Assembly (NCBI GenBank): GCA_013151235.1
Contig: JAADIO010000055.1
Coordinates: 1-39,742, forward strand
Direction: 5' to 3'
Source: Deltaproteobacteria bacterium
Lineage (GTDB): Bacteria > CG2-30-53-67
Length of the DNA stretch: 39,742 nucleotides
This document shows positions 7,461-18,004 of the stretch, in pieces. The notes beneath the pieces are model-generated. The model was not told the DNA's origin and ran no database searches. It was given only the letters and a program-made list of their open reading frames with translations. The number at the start of each line of letters is the position of its first letter. Position 1 is the first letter of the stretch. Position numbers and translations under genes: made by a program.

Positions 7461-8978
7461 TTACTCCAGCAACGCCGGAAGCAGAATCCGGAAGGTACTT
7501 CCTTTCCCGGTCCCTCCATCCACCCAGATCCGCCCGCCATGCGCCTCGATGATCACCTTGGCGATATACAGTCCCAAGCCCGACCCTTCGATCTCCGTTG
7601 TTCCCCGAACTCTCCGGTATTTTTCGAAGATCGTCGGAAGATCGCCTTCCGGAATCCCCCGGCCGTTGTCGATGATGGAAATCTGCAGAATCCGCTCCGC
7701 CGCCTCCAATTCTTGTGAAGACGGACACCCGGAAGGCTGTTCCGGCAACAGGTCGGCCAGGACACGGATCTTGCCGCCGCCGGGGGTGAACTTGATGGCA
7801 TTCCCGATCAGGTTGATCATCACCCGCATGAGGTAGTCCTTGTCCCCGACAATCGGAAACCGGTCGGCGCCGAAGTCCTTCTCGATGATGATCTCCTTAC
7901 TCCGGGAGAACATCCGCTGTGTCCTGATCGAGATCTCCATCACATCATTCATGTCAATGCGCTGCCGGTTGTATTCCACGGTCCCCGAATCGAGTTTGGA
8001 CAGATCGAGCAGTTCATTGACCAGGTTGAGAAGATGGTTGGCGCCGGTTTCAATATTCTGCAACAATTTCGTCAGGTCTTCATCAATCACTCCCCTGGTT
8101 TCGTTCAGGACAATCTTGTCACAGATGGTAATCGTCGTCAGGGGATTCTTCAGGTCATGGATGACCATGGAGACAAAGTCCGCCTTCTTCTGTTCCAATT
8201 CCTTGTCCTTGGCGATATCCCGGAAGACCTCCACCCGGCCGATCACTTCCCCCTCGGCGGAAAAGATGAATCGCGTACTTTTTACAATGGGAACACGACT
8301 CCCGTCCTTGCGGACAAGATTGAACTCTTTCATGATCTTCCGGTCCCGACCGATTGCCCCCTTCGTCTCAAGGATACGACAGTCGGCATCATCGGGACAA
8401 TTGAAGATCTCCGTACATTTCCGGCCGATCGCCTCCCGGAAGCTGTAACCGGTAATCTCTTCGGCGGCGGCATTAAAGAAGACGATCTCCATCTCCTGGT
8501 TCACGGAAAAGAGCCCTTCCCCCATGGTATTGATGATGGTCTCGATCTGTTCTTTCTGATTGGCAAGCATCCGGTTGGTATGGCGCACCTCATCGTGAAG
8601 GTGTTTCATCTGCAGGGCGGATCTGACCCGGGCCAGCAGCTCCATCTCATTGTAGGGCTTGCGGATATAGTCATCGGCGCCGTGGCTCAATCCTTCGATG
8701 GTATCCTCGATGGAACTCTTGGCGCTGACCAGGATAATCGGGATGTTCCGGGTCTCCGGCTTTTTCTTAATCGTTTCACAGACCCGGTATCCATCAATCC
8801 CCGGCATCATGATGTCGAGGAGAATCAGGTCCGGCTGTTCCCGGTAGACCTCCTTTAACGCCGCCTCTCCGCTCCGGGCCGTCCGGACATAGTACCCATC
8901 CATCTTCAGAATATCGGAGAGGAGTTCCAGGTTGTTCCGGTTGTCATCGACAACGAGGATATTGGAAACAATTTCCAT
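7461..8978 (-). CDS. Soluble hybrid histidine kinase: receiver-PAS-HisKA-HATPase
   Basis: A 505-residue cytosolic signalling protein without membrane segments. Order: an N-terminal receiver (about 5-122) with a complete active site (Asp11/Asp12, phosphoacceptor Asp55 in LILLDIMMPGIDG, Lys107 in IRKPY); a short coiled-coil; a PAS domain (about 142-265); a HisKA domain with His274 in VIHDLKNP; and an HATPase with N-box LIGNAIKFTPGGG, IIDNGRGIP and GSGLGLYIAK. The receiver at the N-terminus suggests its activity is gated by another kinase, plausibly the one encoded just upstream. The start at 8978 has AAAAAGGCGG before it. An upstream in-frame start at 9128 would overlap the neighbour by 125 bp and was rejected. 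Confidence 0.93.
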   Translation of the reverse strand: MEIVSNILVVDDNRNNLELLSDILKMDGYYVRTARSGEAALKEVYREQPDLILLDIMMPGIDGYRVCETIKKKPETRNIPIILVSAKSSIEDTIEGLSHGADDYIRKPYNEMELLARVRSALQMKHLHDEVRHTNRMLANQKEQIETIINTMGEGLFSVNQEMEIVFFNAAAEEITGYSFREAIGRKCTEIFNCPDDADCRILETKGAIGRDRKIMKEFNLVRKDGSRVPIVKSTRFIFSAEGEVIGRVEVFRDIAKDKELEQKKADFVSMVIHDLKNPLTTITICDKIVLNETRGVIDEDLTKLLQNIETGANHLLNLVNELLDLSKLDSGTVEYNRQRIDMNDVMEISIRTQRMFSRSKEIIIEKDFGADRFPIVGDKDYLMRVMINLIGNAIKFTPGGGKIRVLADLLPEQPSGCPSSQELEAAERILQISIIDNGRGIPEGDLPTIFEKYRRVRGTTEIEGSGLGLYIAKVIIEAHGGRIWVDGGTGKGSTFRILLPALLE

Positions 8979-9003
8979 TAACGTTCCGCCTTTTTCTCGG
9001 GTT

Positions 9004-9909
9004 CTACTGCAACGACCGATTCTGCGGAGATCCGGATTCGGCATCCGCAACAGGGAGCGTAAACGAAAAGATACTCCCCTCTCCTTCGGCGCTTTCGACA
9101 CGGATGCCCCCGCCATAGGCCTCGACAAACTTTTTGCTGATATAGAGGCCGAGACCGGCCCCCCGTTGTTCCGAATCCGACTCTCCGTTTAACTGGCGAA
9201 ACTGGTCAAAGATGACCTCCTGGTCCTCTTCCCGGATTCCGATCCCGTTATCCCGGACGCGGATCTCTACAACCCCCCTTGCCGTACTTCCCGGCGGAGC
9301 AGGAAGGGCTTTTGCCTCAACAAAGATCCGGCCGTGATCGGGCGTAAACTTGACGGCATTCCCAATCAGGTTGATGAGGACCTCTTTGATCCGGACCTCT
9401 CCCGCCAAAACCTTCGGAAGGTCCTCGGGAATCCGGTGTTCCAGATGGAGGACACGGTCCACCAACTGGGGCTCTATGCTGACCAATGAAGAGAGGACCA
9501 GTTTTTTCACACTCAACGGTTCAATCCTGAGTTCGGCCTTCCCCAATTCCAGATGAGAAAGATTGAGCAGGTCATCAATGACGTGCATCAGATGCTGTGC
9601 GTTTTCATAGACCTTCATCAGATTCTTCAGCTGATTCTCGTTCAGGTAACCGTAGCTCCCTTTGATCAGCATGTTGGTATAGCCGAGAATCGAATTCATG
9701 GGCGTGCGCAGTTCGTGGGAAATGTTGGCAAGAAATTCCGATTTGAGCCGGTCCGCCTCCCGGATCTTCTCGTTTGCACGGGCAAGAACACGATTCTGCC
9801 GCTCCAGTTCCCGGCTTTTTTCGTTCAGCTCCTCCGTCCGGAGGAGGATCATCTCTTCAAGGCGTCGGTTCAGCTCCCGCAGTTCCTCCGGCCTTCCCTT
9901 CGGCTCCAT
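9004..9909 (-). CDS. Soluble sensor-less histidine kinase (HisKA-HATPase)
   Basis: A 301-residue histidine kinase that begins with a coiled-coil (about 8-55, rich in Glu and Arg) and has no membrane segment or recognisable sensor domain. HisKA carries His65 in FLANISHELRTP. The HATPase has LINLIGNAVKFTPDHG, IRVRDNGIGI and GAGLGLYISKKFVEAYGGG. The coiled-coil start (LRELNRRLEEMILLRTEEL) resembles the linker that normally follows PAS or receiver domains, so its input probably comes from a partner protein. The start codon is 3 bp after the tldD stop, and its ribosome binding site (GGGGAGAGG) lies inside the end of tldD. The hybrid kinase follows 25 bp downstream. Confidence 0.93.
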   Translation of the reverse strand: MEPKGRPEELRELNRRLEEMILLRTEELNEKSRELERQNRVLARANEKIREADRLKSEFLANISHELRTPMNSILGYTNMLIKGSYGYLNENQLKNLMKVYENAQHLMHVIDDLLNLSHLELGKAELRIEPLSVKKLVLSSLVSIEPQLVDRVLHLEHRIPEDLPKVLAGEVRIKEVLINLIGNAVKFTPDHGRIFVEAKALPAPPGSTARGVVEIRVRDNGIGIREEDQEVIFDQFRQLNGESDSEQRGAGLGLYISKKFVEAYGGGIRVESAEGEGSIFSFTLPVADAESGSPQNRSLQ

Positions 9910-12529: not shown

Positions 12530-13927
12530 TCATGTCCGTCCCCCGCCTCTTCGTTTCTTCCGTTCGTCATCGTCCATTAAATCAGGTAAATCCCCGTCTG
12601 AAAAATCGTACACCCTTTCACTTCCGGGGACCGGCGGATCGGCACAAGGCGCTTCATCTTCCTCGGAGACCTCTTCCAGTTCCAGCTTGAGATCGGTTTC
12701 GGGGTCCGAAAGGTCGACCACCTCTTTTTCGGAAGAGGCCCCGTTCTCCTCGCCGGCGTCATACCCGAGAGAGATCACATCCTCCGGCGATTCAGGCGCA
12801 GGCGCCGCTTCCTGTTTTTGCGTATCGTTCAGAAAAAAGGACTCTTCTTCACCCTCGTCGTCTCCCCCCCCTTCGGGTCGCCCCGGTTCGGGCAGGGCCG
12901 CCGGTCCACTCATCCCGGACGCAGAGGCTCCCTCCGGACCGGGAAGGGCCATAGATCCGGATCGTTTCGGTGCCCCGACCAGATCCTCGTATCGTACACC
13001 CGCCGAGGCTTTCTGCGGCACGGACGGCTCTTCCGGCTCGGGAACCGCCGGTTTCCGATCGTCTTCCGTGATCACCTTTACGGTTTTCCATTTCCGGAGA
13101 AGCACCAGAAAGACGGCCAGTCCCACCACGGCAACCAGGCCCACCCCCCAGAGCAAAAGCATCCGGTGATGATGTTTTGCCCGGGCCTGCACTGCAGCAC
13201 GTTGCGCCGCCTGAGCCTGTTGCTGTAATTTCCGTTCTCTGCGCTGCTCCGCCGACTTCTGCAAAGCATGGATCCGATCCTGAAGCCTCTTTTGCAGGGC
13301 GGAATCGCTGACTTTGCCGGCAAAAGACCGAAGATCGGAGATCGTGCCTGTTTTCAGGAGATGATCCAGTGTAATCAACTCCAGAGCCTTCTTGGCAGCA
13401 TCAACAAACCGGCCTTCCGGATAAATTTTCAGATATTCCTGGAATTTCTCCTGATGATTCGTCCGGACGGCATCCTGAAAAACCAGGACCTCCGCCCGAT
13501 TCTTGGCCTCATCCAGAAAGAGGCTGTTCGGATTGCGACGGATATAATCGAGATAAACCGGCGCTGTATCAATTCTTTTGACCTCTTCAAACTGCAGGGC
13601 CATGATCCGATCTTCCGCGAGAGAAGCAAATTCGCTCTTCGGAAACTGATGAAGAAACGCCTCGTAGTCGGCGATGGTGTCCTTCTTTTTCACCTCCGTG
13701 AAGGCCACCATGTCCGGCGTGACGATCTTCTCCACCTCCGACATCGGAATACCGACAATCCCGCCGAGACTCTCGTATTTGACCATCCCTTCTTCACGCC
13801 AGAAATTATCCACCTTAATCACCCGGCCGTCTTTCAGAAAGATCCGGCTTTCGGCAAATCCCACAGCGGGCGCAAAGAAAAAAGAAAAAATGATAATCAA
13901 CAAAAGAAGGTTTCTGATTCGAAGCAT
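12530..13927 (-). CDS. Conserved-style hypothetical membrane protein with signal peptide, helical repeats and acidic tail
   Basis: I do not recognise a family. The 465-residue protein starts with a signal peptide (about 1-25, ending GFAES). A small beta-rich segment (about 27-70, with FLKDGRVIKVDNFWREEGMVKYE) resembles the short fold seen at the start of other deltaproteobacterial envelope proteins. Next is a helical region (about 80-225) with TPR-like spacing, then a Lys/Gln/Ala-rich coiled-coil, a membrane helix (about 255-276, LLLWGVGLVAVVGLAVFLVLL) and a 190-residue Pro/Glu/Asp-rich tail that looks disordered. Probable topology: helical domain in the periplasm, acidic tail in the cytoplasm. 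A scaffold or assembly role is possible but not shown. It has its own promoter at 13975-14004. Confidence 0.8.
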   Translation of the reverse strand: MLRIRNLLLLIIIFSFFFAPAVGFAESRIFLKDGRVIKVDNFWREEGMVKYESLGGIVGIPMSEVEKIVTPDMVAFTEVKKKDTIADYEAFLHQFPKSEFASLAEDRIMALQFEEVKRIDTAPVYLDYIRRNPNSLFLDEAKNRAEVLVFQDAVRTNHQEKFQEYLKIYPEGRFVDAAKKALELITLDHLLKTGTISDLRSFAGKVSDSALQKRLQDRIHALQKSAEQRRERKLQQQAQAAQRAAVQARAKHHHRMLLLWGVGLVAVVGLAVFLVLLRKWKTVKVITEDDRKPAVPEPEEPSVPQKASAGVRYEDLVGAPKRSGSMALPGPEGASASGMSGPAALPEPGRPEGGGDDEGEEESFFLNDTQKQEAAPAPESPEDVISLGYDAGEENGASSEKEVVDLSDPETDLKLELEEVSEEDEAPCADPPVPGSERVYDFSDGDLPDLMDDDERKKRRGGGRT

Positions 13928-14686: not shown

Positions 14687-14715
14687 TTGACATTTTACCG
14701 TAGAGGACATACAAT
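14687..14715 (+). promoter_or_regulatory. Strong sigma-70 promoter of the Glu-receiver/GAF operon
   Basis: A perfect -35 TTGACA (14687-14692) and a -10 TACAAT (14710-14715) are spaced 17 bp apart. The leader to the start codon at 14793 is about 70 nt. Confidence 0.8.
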
Positions 14716-14792: not shown

Positions 14793-15629
14793 ATGATTCA
14801 GAACAAGGCAATTCTCATCGTCGACAGTGAAAACCATACCCTCAGGATCCTGAAGGACCTCCTGATCGGGAACGGGTTTGTCGTCTATTTTGCGCCGAAC
14901 TGTGCCCTGGCCATGCAGATTGCCATCAAGGATCTGCCCGACCTGATCCTCTCGGAAATCGTGCTGGAGGACATGGACGGCCGGGAGTTCATGAAAACGG
15001 TACATAACGCACCGGAGACAAGTGAGATCCCTTTTATTTTCCTGACCTCCCGGACCCTTCTGTCGGACAAGGTATCCGCTCTCGATGCTGGCGCCGAAGA
15101 CTATATTACGAAGCCCTTCAATGAGACGGAACTTTTAGCCCGAGTCCACGTGGTCCTGCGCCGCTACAACAGACGGCCGGTGACGGCGCTGACCGAGGAG
15201 GACGGCATAAAAGGGGATCTGAAGGACATCAATCTCGTCGACTTTGTCCAGCTCTTCGACATGGGAAGAAAAACGGCAACCATTGAAATCTCCGGGGAAG
15301 ACCGGGAGGGACGGATCTATTTTGAAGGGGGGGAACTCATTCACGCCGTTTCCGGAAAGCGTTTCGGGAAAGAGGCACTCTATGATCTTTTTGCCGTTCG
15401 GGAAGGGTCCTTTATCGTTCACCTGAATGTCTCGTCACGGATCCGGACGATCCAGGAGGGCTCGACGAACCTGATGATGGAGATCATGCACCGTCTGGAC
15501 GAACAGGGAATCCATCCCGTCGTTTCAGGACCGGAAAAGCGGACACCCCCGGAACGATCTTCCCTGCACAACGAAGGAATCCGGGAACTCTTTGAAAAAG
15601 GCGTGATTGAAGAATTCACAAAAGGGTAA
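14793..15629 (+). CDS. Atypical response regulator: receiver with Glu at the phospho-site, fused to DUF4388
   Basis: A 278-residue cytosolic protein. The receiver (about 5-125) keeps Asp11, Thr85 and Lys107 (in ITKPFNETELLAR). The phosphoacceptor position, which should be Asp in LILxD, reads LILSEIVLEDMDG, so it is Glu55. The second acidic residue after Asp11 is Ser12. Glu at this place mimics phosphorylated Asp in known response-regulator mutants, so this receiver is probably locked on or phosphorylation-independent (inference). Residues 138-215 form a DUF4388 (PatA-type) domain: KGDLKDINLVDFVQLFDMG, then GRIYFEGGELIHA and GKEALYDLFAVREGSFIV. A short tail follows. GAGG precedes the start at 6 bases. 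The gene is 56 bp upstream of the GAF protein. Confidence 0.92.
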   Translation: MIQNKAILIVDSENHTLRILKDLLIGNGFVVYFAPNCALAMQIAIKDLPDLILSEIVLEDMDGREFMKTVHNAPETSEIPFIFLTSRTLLSDKVSALDAGAEDYITKPFNETELLARVHVVLRRYNRRPVTALTEEDGIKGDLKDINLVDFVQLFDMGRKTATIEISGEDREGRIYFEGGELIHAVSGKRFGKEALYDLFAVREGSFIVHLNVSSRIRTIQEGSTNLMMEIMHRLDEQGIHPVVSGPEKRTPPERSSLHNEGIRELFEKGVIEEFTKG

Positions 15630-15685
15630 AGCTCCCTTTGCCCGTCGGCGGCATCGCCGAAGCTTGCGTCCTCCGAAAGGACTTT

Positions 15686-18004
15686 ATGGATACGGCCAAA
15701 AATATCGCCATCATCGGCGGCAACAAAGAAGCGCTGGGGCTTCTTCCGCTCCTTGAGAAGAAGAACGTCCGCGTCAAGATCATCGTAGACACCAATCCCG
15801 ACGCCCTGGTATTTAAGCTCAATGAATTAGGCTTCCGCCTGGCCCGAAAGTACCATATCATCCTGAGTTCCGACCTGACCGACCTGTTGGCGCAGGAGGA
15901 TCTCGATCTGATCATCGATGCATCCTCCGATCCTGCAACCCGGGCCTTTCTCGAAAAAGAAGAGTTCTCGGGAAGGGAGGTCATCAGTGTACTGAGCGCC
16001 CGTCTGCTCTGGGGGCACAAGGAGGAAGAGGCCGGATCGGACCTCCCGAAGCATTCCAAGCTCCTCTCCAGCCTGAACGACATTGTCGAGGCCGTCAATC
16101 TCACCAAGGATAAACGGCAGGTCTCCTCTCTGATCCTGCAAGTCGCCATCGAATCGACAGGCGCCGACAACGGCTCTCTCATGATCGTCGACCCCGAGGA
16201 AAAAGTCCTGAAGATCGAAGTCGCCGAAGGAATCCCGGAAGAGATCATCCCGACGATCCGCTGCCCTCTGGGCGAGGGGATTGCCGGGAAAGTCGCGCAG
16301 GAGGGACAGCCGCTGCTTCTCTCCGGGAAGTCCGACGACAGGACCTTTCGGACTCTCCGGGAACGGGAAGAGATCAAATCCGCCCTTTGTGTCCCCCTGA
16401 CGGTGAACGGTTCCACCGTCGGTGTTCTGAACCTGAACAACCTGAGGGATCTCGACGGATTTACCGAGGAAGACCTTTCCTTCATTACCCGGCTGGCCGC
16501 CTTCGATGCGGAGATCCTTCTCAAATCACAGGAGTATGCCTCCCTCCGGGAAAATGCCGAAACCTTCCGGATCTGGAAAGAACTGAACCGGATCCTTAAC
16601 ACCTCAGCGCCGATCGAAGAACGGTTGCTGCAAACCTGCCGGACCCTCTCCGCCCGGTTTCGGGAGAGCGTCTGTTCGATCTATCTTTTCGACACCAACA
16701 CACGGGAACTGACCCTCAAAGCGAGCAGTCTGAAAAGATTTACCCCCACCGATCAGAGCCACATCCAGCTGCATGAAGGCATAGACGGGTGGGCCGCGGG
16801 AGAGCAGGAGGTCGTCATCCTGAAGGAGCACCCGAATCTCGACCCGGAGGTCAGGAAGACATTCATGTCGATTCCCCTCGTCTCCGAGGGGACGATTACC
16901 GGCGTCATGAATATCCAGTTGATCTCCGCAAAGGGGCTCTCCGAAGAGGAGGAAATCCTTCTCCGGGACATCGCACGGCACCTCTCCAGCGCCGTGAAAA
17001 GCGCCCGGAAGGAAGACAGGGCCTATCTGCGGGCGACAAAGATCGAGGCGATCAACGAGGCAGGGATCAATATCCTCTCCATCATGGACCTGCAAAAACT
17101 TCTGGAACTCGTTCCCCCCTCGGCCGCCATGATCATGGACGCCGACGGCTGTATCCTCCGGCTCAAGGGGACCGACGGCGGGATGGAAATCCGGTCGACC
17201 TACTCCATGTGGGAGGAGGAGATTGAAGACCGGGTCTTTGCACTCGATGCGGAGATCGGAGCCCAGGTGGAACTCGGCAAAAAACCGCTCTATATCCGGG
17301 ATCTCGGCGAGGAAGAAGGATATGAATCCTTCGGACGGGTTGTCAAATCGGTCGTGGCCATGCCCCTGATGGAACAGGGAGAGGTCCGCGGCATCCTCTC
17401 CATCTATGACAAGATCCCGAAAGGCTCATTTCACGCCACCGCCTTCGGCAGGGAGGACCTGGAAATCTTTCAGAAGTTCGTCCACTATGTTGAAAAGGCA
17501 ATCGTCAACGTACAGCGAAACGACCGGACGCGGACGATCCGGAACTGTGATAATCTCACGGGCCTGCCGAATGAAGGGGCGCTCAAACGGAAGATCGAAA
17601 ATGAAATCAACCGCTCCCGGCGCTACGAACGGCGGTTCATTCTGCTCACCCTCTGCTGGAGTCATGAAAAGAACGGGAGCCCACCCCTCGATGTGGAAAA
17701 GCGGAACAGCCTGATCGTGGAAATCAGTTCCGTCCTCCAGGAGAATATCCGGGAATATGATACCCTGGCTCGAACGGGACCCCGGAAATTCGAGGCTCTC
17801 TTCCCCGAGTCCATGGAAGAGATCCGCGATCTGACGACACGATTGACCCGATCGATTCGTGATCGCAAAAAAATGAAAACTTCCCCGCTGGCCGACATGG
17901 AACTGCAACTCAAATTCGGTTACGCCGTTTTTCCCGACGATGGAGTCACGATCGAAGCCCTTCTCAACGAGTCCCACCGCCTGCGCCTCGGCGCACGGAT
18001 CTAA
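15686..18004 (+). CDS. Multidomain sensor: Rossmann-like, three GAF domains, degenerate GGDEF
   Basis: A 772-residue soluble protein. Residues about 5-110 look like a dinucleotide-binding fold: KNIAIIGGNKEALGLLPLLE, then VRVKIIVDTNP and a DLDLIIDASSDPATRAFL strand. GAF domains follow at about 130-300 (GSLMIVDPEEKVLKIEVAEG, ALCVPLTVNGSTVGVLNLNN), 310-460 (SIPLVSEGTITGVMNIQ) and 475-610 (VVAMPLMEQGEVRGILSIYD). The C-terminal GGDEF-like domain (about 620-772) begins CDNLTGLPNEGALKRKIENE, but its signature reads RTGPRKFEALFP in place of RxGGDEF, so cyclase activity is not expected; a GTP- or c-di-GMP-binding regulatory role is possible. Start at 15686 is preceded by GAAAGGA; an in-frame TTG at 15638 was rejected. 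Its stop overlaps the PASTA gene stop. Confidence 0.88.
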   Translation: MDTAKNIAIIGGNKEALGLLPLLEKKNVRVKIIVDTNPDALVFKLNELGFRLARKYHIILSSDLTDLLAQEDLDLIIDASSDPATRAFLEKEEFSGREVISVLSARLLWGHKEEEAGSDLPKHSKLLSSLNDIVEAVNLTKDKRQVSSLILQVAIESTGADNGSLMIVDPEEKVLKIEVAEGIPEEIIPTIRCPLGEGIAGKVAQEGQPLLLSGKSDDRTFRTLREREEIKSALCVPLTVNGSTVGVLNLNNLRDLDGFTEEDLSFITRLAAFDAEILLKSQEYASLRENAETFRIWKELNRILNTSAPIEERLLQTCRTLSARFRESVCSIYLFDTNTRELTLKASSLKRFTPTDQSHIQLHEGIDGWAAGEQEVVILKEHPNLDPEVRKTFMSIPLVSEGTITGVMNIQLISAKGLSEEEEILLRDIARHLSSAVKSARKEDRAYLRATKIEAINEAGINILSIMDLQKLLELVPPSAAMIMDADGCILRLKGTDGGMEIRSTYSMWEEEIEDRVFALDAEIGAQVELGKKPLYIRDLGEEEGYESFGRVVKSVVAMPLMEQGEVRGILSIYDKIPKGSFHATAFGREDLEIFQKFVHYVEKAIVNVQRNDRTRTIRNCDNLTGLPNEGALKRKIENEINRSRRYERRFILLTLCWSHEKNGSPPLDVEKRNSLIVEISSVLQENIREYDTLARTGPRKFEALFPESMEEIRDLTTRLTRSIRDRKKMKTSPLADMELQLKFGYAVFPDDGVTIEALLNESHRLRLGARI

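Follow-up and report, generated by a model that had tools for sequence, protein, structure and literature searches.

Gene 2 of a two-gene operon in the window, by which we mean the whole 39,742-nucleotide stretch of DNA analyzed, encodes a 772-residue protein in which a Rossmann-like head precedes three GAF domains and a GGDEF domain that has lost its cyclase site but kept its I-site. We propose, with a probability of about 0.45, that this protein is a cytoplasmic, catalytically dead GGDEF receptor for c-di-GMP that has sensory inputs and acts together with a receiver-DUF4388 adaptor, the product of gene 1. Sensing of c-di-GMP is the most economical account because the I-site is retained, and we favor a receptor because SgmT and PelD show that the same residue pattern makes one. 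The window comes from the 2.62 Mb assembly of an uncultured bacterium, to which MAGs of the Nitrospirae CG2-30-53-67 group are the nearest named relatives, and we compared it with five other genomes of its family (six in all, from three genera).

The longest open reading frame of gene 2 opens at TTG 15638. ATG 15686 is the best start because the aligned orthologues begin there, which places the gene at 15686..18004 on the + strand. The initial annotation had described a dinucleotide-binding-like fold, three GAF domains and a GGDEF-like domain reading RTGPRKF. Domain matches and the orthologue alignment give the same order, Rossmann-GAF-GAF-GAF-degenerate GGDEF, and AlphaFold2 and Foldseek agree on the Rossmann-like head. 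The GAF profile matches three stretches (5e-36), all on the + strand. GAF1 (about residues 141-275, 16106..16510) and GAF2 (about residues 305-440, 16598..17005) were assigned by profile match and AlphaFold2; GAF3 (about residues 465-605, 17078..17500) has a profile match and GAF-like strands and helices with pLDDT mostly 70-90. Judging from the domain map, the chain has no space left for a membrane region. The orthologues in the five other family genomes are 66-86% identical to gene 2 of the window.

The GGDEF domain (residues 620-764, 17543..17977, + strand) was placed by a profile match, which is weak and above threshold (1.5e-12), and by structure-based alignment. An active diguanylate cyclase carries GG(D/E)EF and metal-binding Asp residues. 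The A-site of gene 2 reads RTGPRKF (residues 696-702), all six family genomes have RTGPxKF, and the metal-site residues are replaced; judged from these residues, the cyclase site is dead. R689-E-Y-D692, which lies five residues before G698, falls on the RxxD I-site of active cyclases when aligned with solved structures and is invariant across the six family genomes. A degenerate A-site with an intact RxxD is the residue pattern of receptors of the SgmT, PopA and PelD kind. We compared 11 GGDEF homologues, six from the family and five from four other family-level lineages. Every one has a degenerate A-site and the I-site Arg; the I-site Asp is found in nine and is replaced by Glu (RxxE) in two. 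GGDEF domains at large commonly have Arg and Asp at the I-site. Retention of these two residues is compatible with c-di-GMP binding and is not proof of it, and the full-length AlphaFold2 model, with pLDDT mostly below 50 in the GGDEF part, is too weak to judge the I-site. The organism itself probably contains c-di-GMP since eight strong GGDEF domains are encoded in its genome along with 11 PilZ matches. The initial annotation had raised a path without c-di-GMP synthesis. The loss of synthesis by gene 2 is borne out, but c-di-GMP sensing is predicted rather than excluded because the I-site is invariant in the family. That the cyclase site is lost repeatedly while the I-site stays gives this prediction its clarity.

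In the mechanism that we propose, the GGDEF domain would bind c-di-GMP through its retained I-site, and protein contacts would read out how the ligand changes the shape or oligomeric state of gene 2. The gene 1 protein is the likeliest partner. It would serve as a protein-binding adaptor whose receiver may be partly or wholly freed from phosphorylation; the physical pairing and its output are presumed. A motor or polarity target, such as a type IV pilus ATPase or an MglA-type GTPase, is a lead only.

The head of gene 2 (residues 1-110, 15686..16015, + strand) has the beta/alpha order of the Rossmann type (AlphaFold2 mean pLDDT 76), including the beta-alpha-beta fold of NAD(P)-binding Rossmann domains. 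Its best matches among solved structures by Foldseek are NAD-dependent dehydrogenases of the Gfo/Idh/MocA type and related enzymes (E 4.6e-5, TM 0.63). In profile searches, the six family N-termini alone gave no credible solved relative, and a wider 17-member profile did. No dedicated Pfam model matched the head, its matches being only to general NAD-binding families. In the alignment, Asp36 after strand 2 is kept. The glycine motif departs from GxGxxG and reads GGNKEA in the window and GGNKEA, GGNKEG, GGNKQA or GGSKEG in the family. Cofactor binding by this head is uncertain because the glycine motif is eroded. A search of 386 genomes with the six family sequences showed that 15 genomes outside the family also have this head. 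Related heads there cap sigma-54 activators, histidine kinases, hybrid ones included, and active GAF-GGDEF proteins, and most of them retain GxGxxG. Members of this module match Gfo/Idh/MocA and Rex-type NAD-binding models. At loci L059-L074, from unrelated lineages, a Rossmann-like N-terminal domain of about 110 residues was seen on sigma-54 activators, hybrid histidine kinases and active GAF-GGDEF proteins. By its sequence distribution, the Rossmann head is a recurring, mobile signalling input module. Nothing relevant on a Rossmann sensor head of kinases or sigma-54 regulators was found in the literature searched. A ligand found for one such head would inform many regulators, as in many lineages the head is joined to one of at least three types of output.

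These properties bear on the model of the initial annotation, in which gene 2 senses GAF ligands together with a nicotinamide or other nucleotide cofactor that the Rossmann domain binds. The fold with its dehydrogenase neighbors, the mobility of the module among signalling proteins and the matches to NAD-binding models argue for a cofactor sensor. The proposed cofactor signal is weakened, however, by the glycine motifs GGNKEA, GGNKEG and GGSKEG of the family and YGSSERL of genome G282, set against GxGxxG in most other heads, and a cofactor sensor leaves the invariant I-site Arg unexplained. We regard it as a possible, though rather unlikely, description of gene 2.

A full-length profile search found the complete Rossmann-GAF3-degenerate GGDEF order in two other family-level lineages, represented by G064, the sole genome of its phylum in our set, and G282. 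In G145, from the family of G282, the counterpart gene is interrupted by the contig end, and the forms in G154 and G292 are shorter, with GAF and a degenerate GGDEF. The head motif of the G064 orthologue is GAGPEA. A REC-DUF4388 relative was searched for and not found in G064, and a REC-DUF4388 gene was not found beside the G282 gene. Gene 1 is thus not a universal partner of this protein type, since G064 has the architecture and no such relative was found there. The combination had been called unfamiliar at the outset; the gene pair is indeed kept across the family, but the long protein also occurs in other lineages, and the one searched for it, G064, gave no REC-DUF4388 relative.

Directly upstream of the G282 counterpart, with overlapping open frames, lies a gene for an MglA-like GTPase. 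This neighbor suggests a link between gene 2-type proteins and polarity or pilus systems. The GTPase (L143:5917-6996) is small and has a long acidic linker and an extra C-terminal tail. G145 encodes a closely similar protein (78% identical over residues 12-94) on a contig different from that of its counterpart gene. The gene upstream of the G064 orthologue was aligned with the C-terminal tail of the G282 GTPase; 15 of 500 shuffles scored equally well, which is not convincing, and we do not propose a shared tail. The genome of the window has PilB/PilT-like ATPases and MglA-like genes, one of which, on contig C5, does not adjoin the locus. A wider proposal would make the Rossmann-headed dead GGDEF proteins a widespread, undescribed class of coincidence detectors, responding to c-di-GMP together with a redox or nucleotide cofactor, with output by contact to adaptors (REC-DUF4388 here, an MglA-type GTPase elsewhere) that steer pili or polarity without phosphotransfer. 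This proposal is speculative, and we give it little weight.

Gene 1 and gene 2 are separated by 56 bases, and in each of the six family genomes they are same-strand neighbors. The initial annotation had staked its reading on this co-occurrence in relatives, as well as on the Rossmann fold, and both held. It had also placed the two genes in one operon under a near-consensus promoter. A sigma-70-type promoter, TTGACA-17-TACAAT, is present at 14687..14715 (+ strand), and the form TTGACA-17-TA(C/A/G)AAT, an 11/12 match with a 17-bp spacer, precedes gene 1 by 78-106 bases in all six family genomes. Because it is kept in all six, it is a phylogenetic footprint beyond a pattern match. The promoter and the adjacent same-strand pair support one operon. 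The surroundings are largely conserved across the family. Near the locus are genes for PASTA, ABC1, TldD and semialdehyde dehydrogenase. A conserved protein with no match in Pfam is encoded upstream in all six genomes, on the opposite strand (12530-13927, - strand); its C-terminal half is poorly conserved.

Gene 1 (14793..15629, + strand) encodes a protein of 278 residues with Response_reg (residues 7-118, 5.9e-21) and DUF4388 (residues 140-238, 6.9e-22) domains. Domain matches and alignments with the orthologues and PleD show a receiver with Glu55 in the acceptor position, followed by a short DUF4388 and a conserved C-terminal tail GIRELFEKGVIEE. The orthologues in the five other family genomes are 51-84% identical to it. 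Its DUF4388 has 99 residues (profile positions 1-121) versus about 155 in the paralogues of the same genomes, and judged from this length it lacks the alpha-helical insertion of the PATAN type. DUF4388 is expanded in the family, with 10-17 matches per genome versus one weak match in each of two same-class genomes outside the family. The tail (15590-15629) reads GIxELFEKGVIEE, follows a variable linker and is strongly conserved in all six genomes; it may be a docking peptide.

A phosphorylatable receiver has an acceptor Asp, an acidic pair, a Thr/Ser and a Lys. In the alignment with PleD, Glu55 of gene 1 replaces the acceptor Asp and Ser12 replaces the second Asp of the acidic pair (D11-S12). 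The pair is one residue short in all six orthologues, and Thr/Ser85 and Lys107 are retained. The acceptor position is Glu in four of the six genomes (two genera, the window included) and Asp in the other two, which belong to one sister genus. By these residues, the Glu-receiver is a lineage variant and not a fixed trait, and the receiver of gene 1 probably works without standard phosphorylation. The earlier suggestion of a Glu-receiver path without phosphorylation is therefore upheld in part: Glu55 and the incomplete pair favor it, but the Asp acceptor of the two sister-genus genomes does not. The same residues weigh on an ordinary two-component output, in which gene 1 takes part in a relay with the nearby kinases at 7461-9909, either by being phosphorylated or through a Glu that mimics phosphorylation, while gene 2 acts as an accessory modulator. 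Asp in the sister genus and the invariant Lys107 would suit such a relay, as would the receiver/PAS/kinase genes, which lie 5-7 kb from the pair and are syntenic in relatives. However, the kinase genes are on the opposite strand, outside the operon, and neither the predominance of Glu nor the incomplete acidic pair is expected of it. We consider a two-component output improbable.

It is very improbable that gene 2 keeps some other nucleotide catalysis, for example the synthesis of a different cyclic dinucleotide: the GGDEF fold is retained under purifying selection (dN/dS 0.08-0.15 for this part), but none of the 11 homologues has kept the metal-binding and A-site residues. A decaying or functionless locus, which the degenerate motifs of the Rossmann, receiver and GGDEF domains might indicate, has practically no chance of being correct because dN/dS is 0.06-0.19 in every domain of both genes, a sign of purifying selection on functional genes rather than chance open reading frames, and the locus is open and syntenic in all six genomes with its promoter conserved.

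The predicted receptor has several known counterparts. SgmT of Myxococcus xanthus is a proven c-di-GMP receptor with GAF and a GGDEF that has a dead A-site and an intact I-site (PMC3509222). It resembles gene 2 in its GAF sensor and its C-terminal GGDEF with a degenerate A-site and an intact RxxD. Unlike gene 2, SgmT contains a histidine kinase and a receiver in the same chain, one GAF instead of three and no Rossmann head. PopA of Caulobacter, compared through its description in PMC3509222, is likewise a c-di-GMP receptor with a degenerate A-site and an intact I-site, and that description includes no Rossmann or GAF input. PelD is also a proven receptor with GAF and a GGDEF with a dead A-site and an intact I-site, and its Gram-positive form has an N-terminal SDR domain; most extended PelD proteins have changes in the cofactor and catalytic residues of the SDR (PMC7112168). 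The SDR form and gene 2 thus both combine a dinucleotide-fold domain, GAF and a degenerate GGDEF with RxxD. PelD differs in its transmembrane region, its pel polysaccharide operon, its epimerase-like SDR and its single GAF, and no pel genes are among the neighbors of our locus. By analogy, Gram-positive PelD with its altered SDR offers the closest parallel to the head of gene 2. The Rossmann-headed sigma-54 activators, histidine kinases and active GAF-GGDEF proteins share a homologous domain of about 110 residues with gene 2; they mostly have GxGxxG and active outputs, whereas in gene 2 the glycine motif and the output are both degenerate.

We take the DUF4388 of gene 1 to be related to the PATAN domain; gene 1 would then share receiver and PATAN with PixE, PixG and LsiR, and it differs from them in its receiver-first order, its short DUF4388 without the insertion of the paralogues and its Glu acceptor. 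PixE, PixG and LsiR are PATAN/CheY-like regulators of cyanobacteria, in which PATAN contacts the pilus motor PilB (PMC7690835, PMC10519157). The alpha-helical insertion of PATAN is named in the title of Makarova 2006, cited in PMC7690835. Neither the Rossmann-GAF3-dead GGDEF order nor its operon with a Glu-receiver-DUF4388 gene was found in the literature searched. By analogy, gene 2 most resembles the known degenerate-GGDEF c-di-GMP receptors with GAF input, SgmT and PelD, and its own receptor function is predicted. The building blocks are all known, and their arrangement is new.
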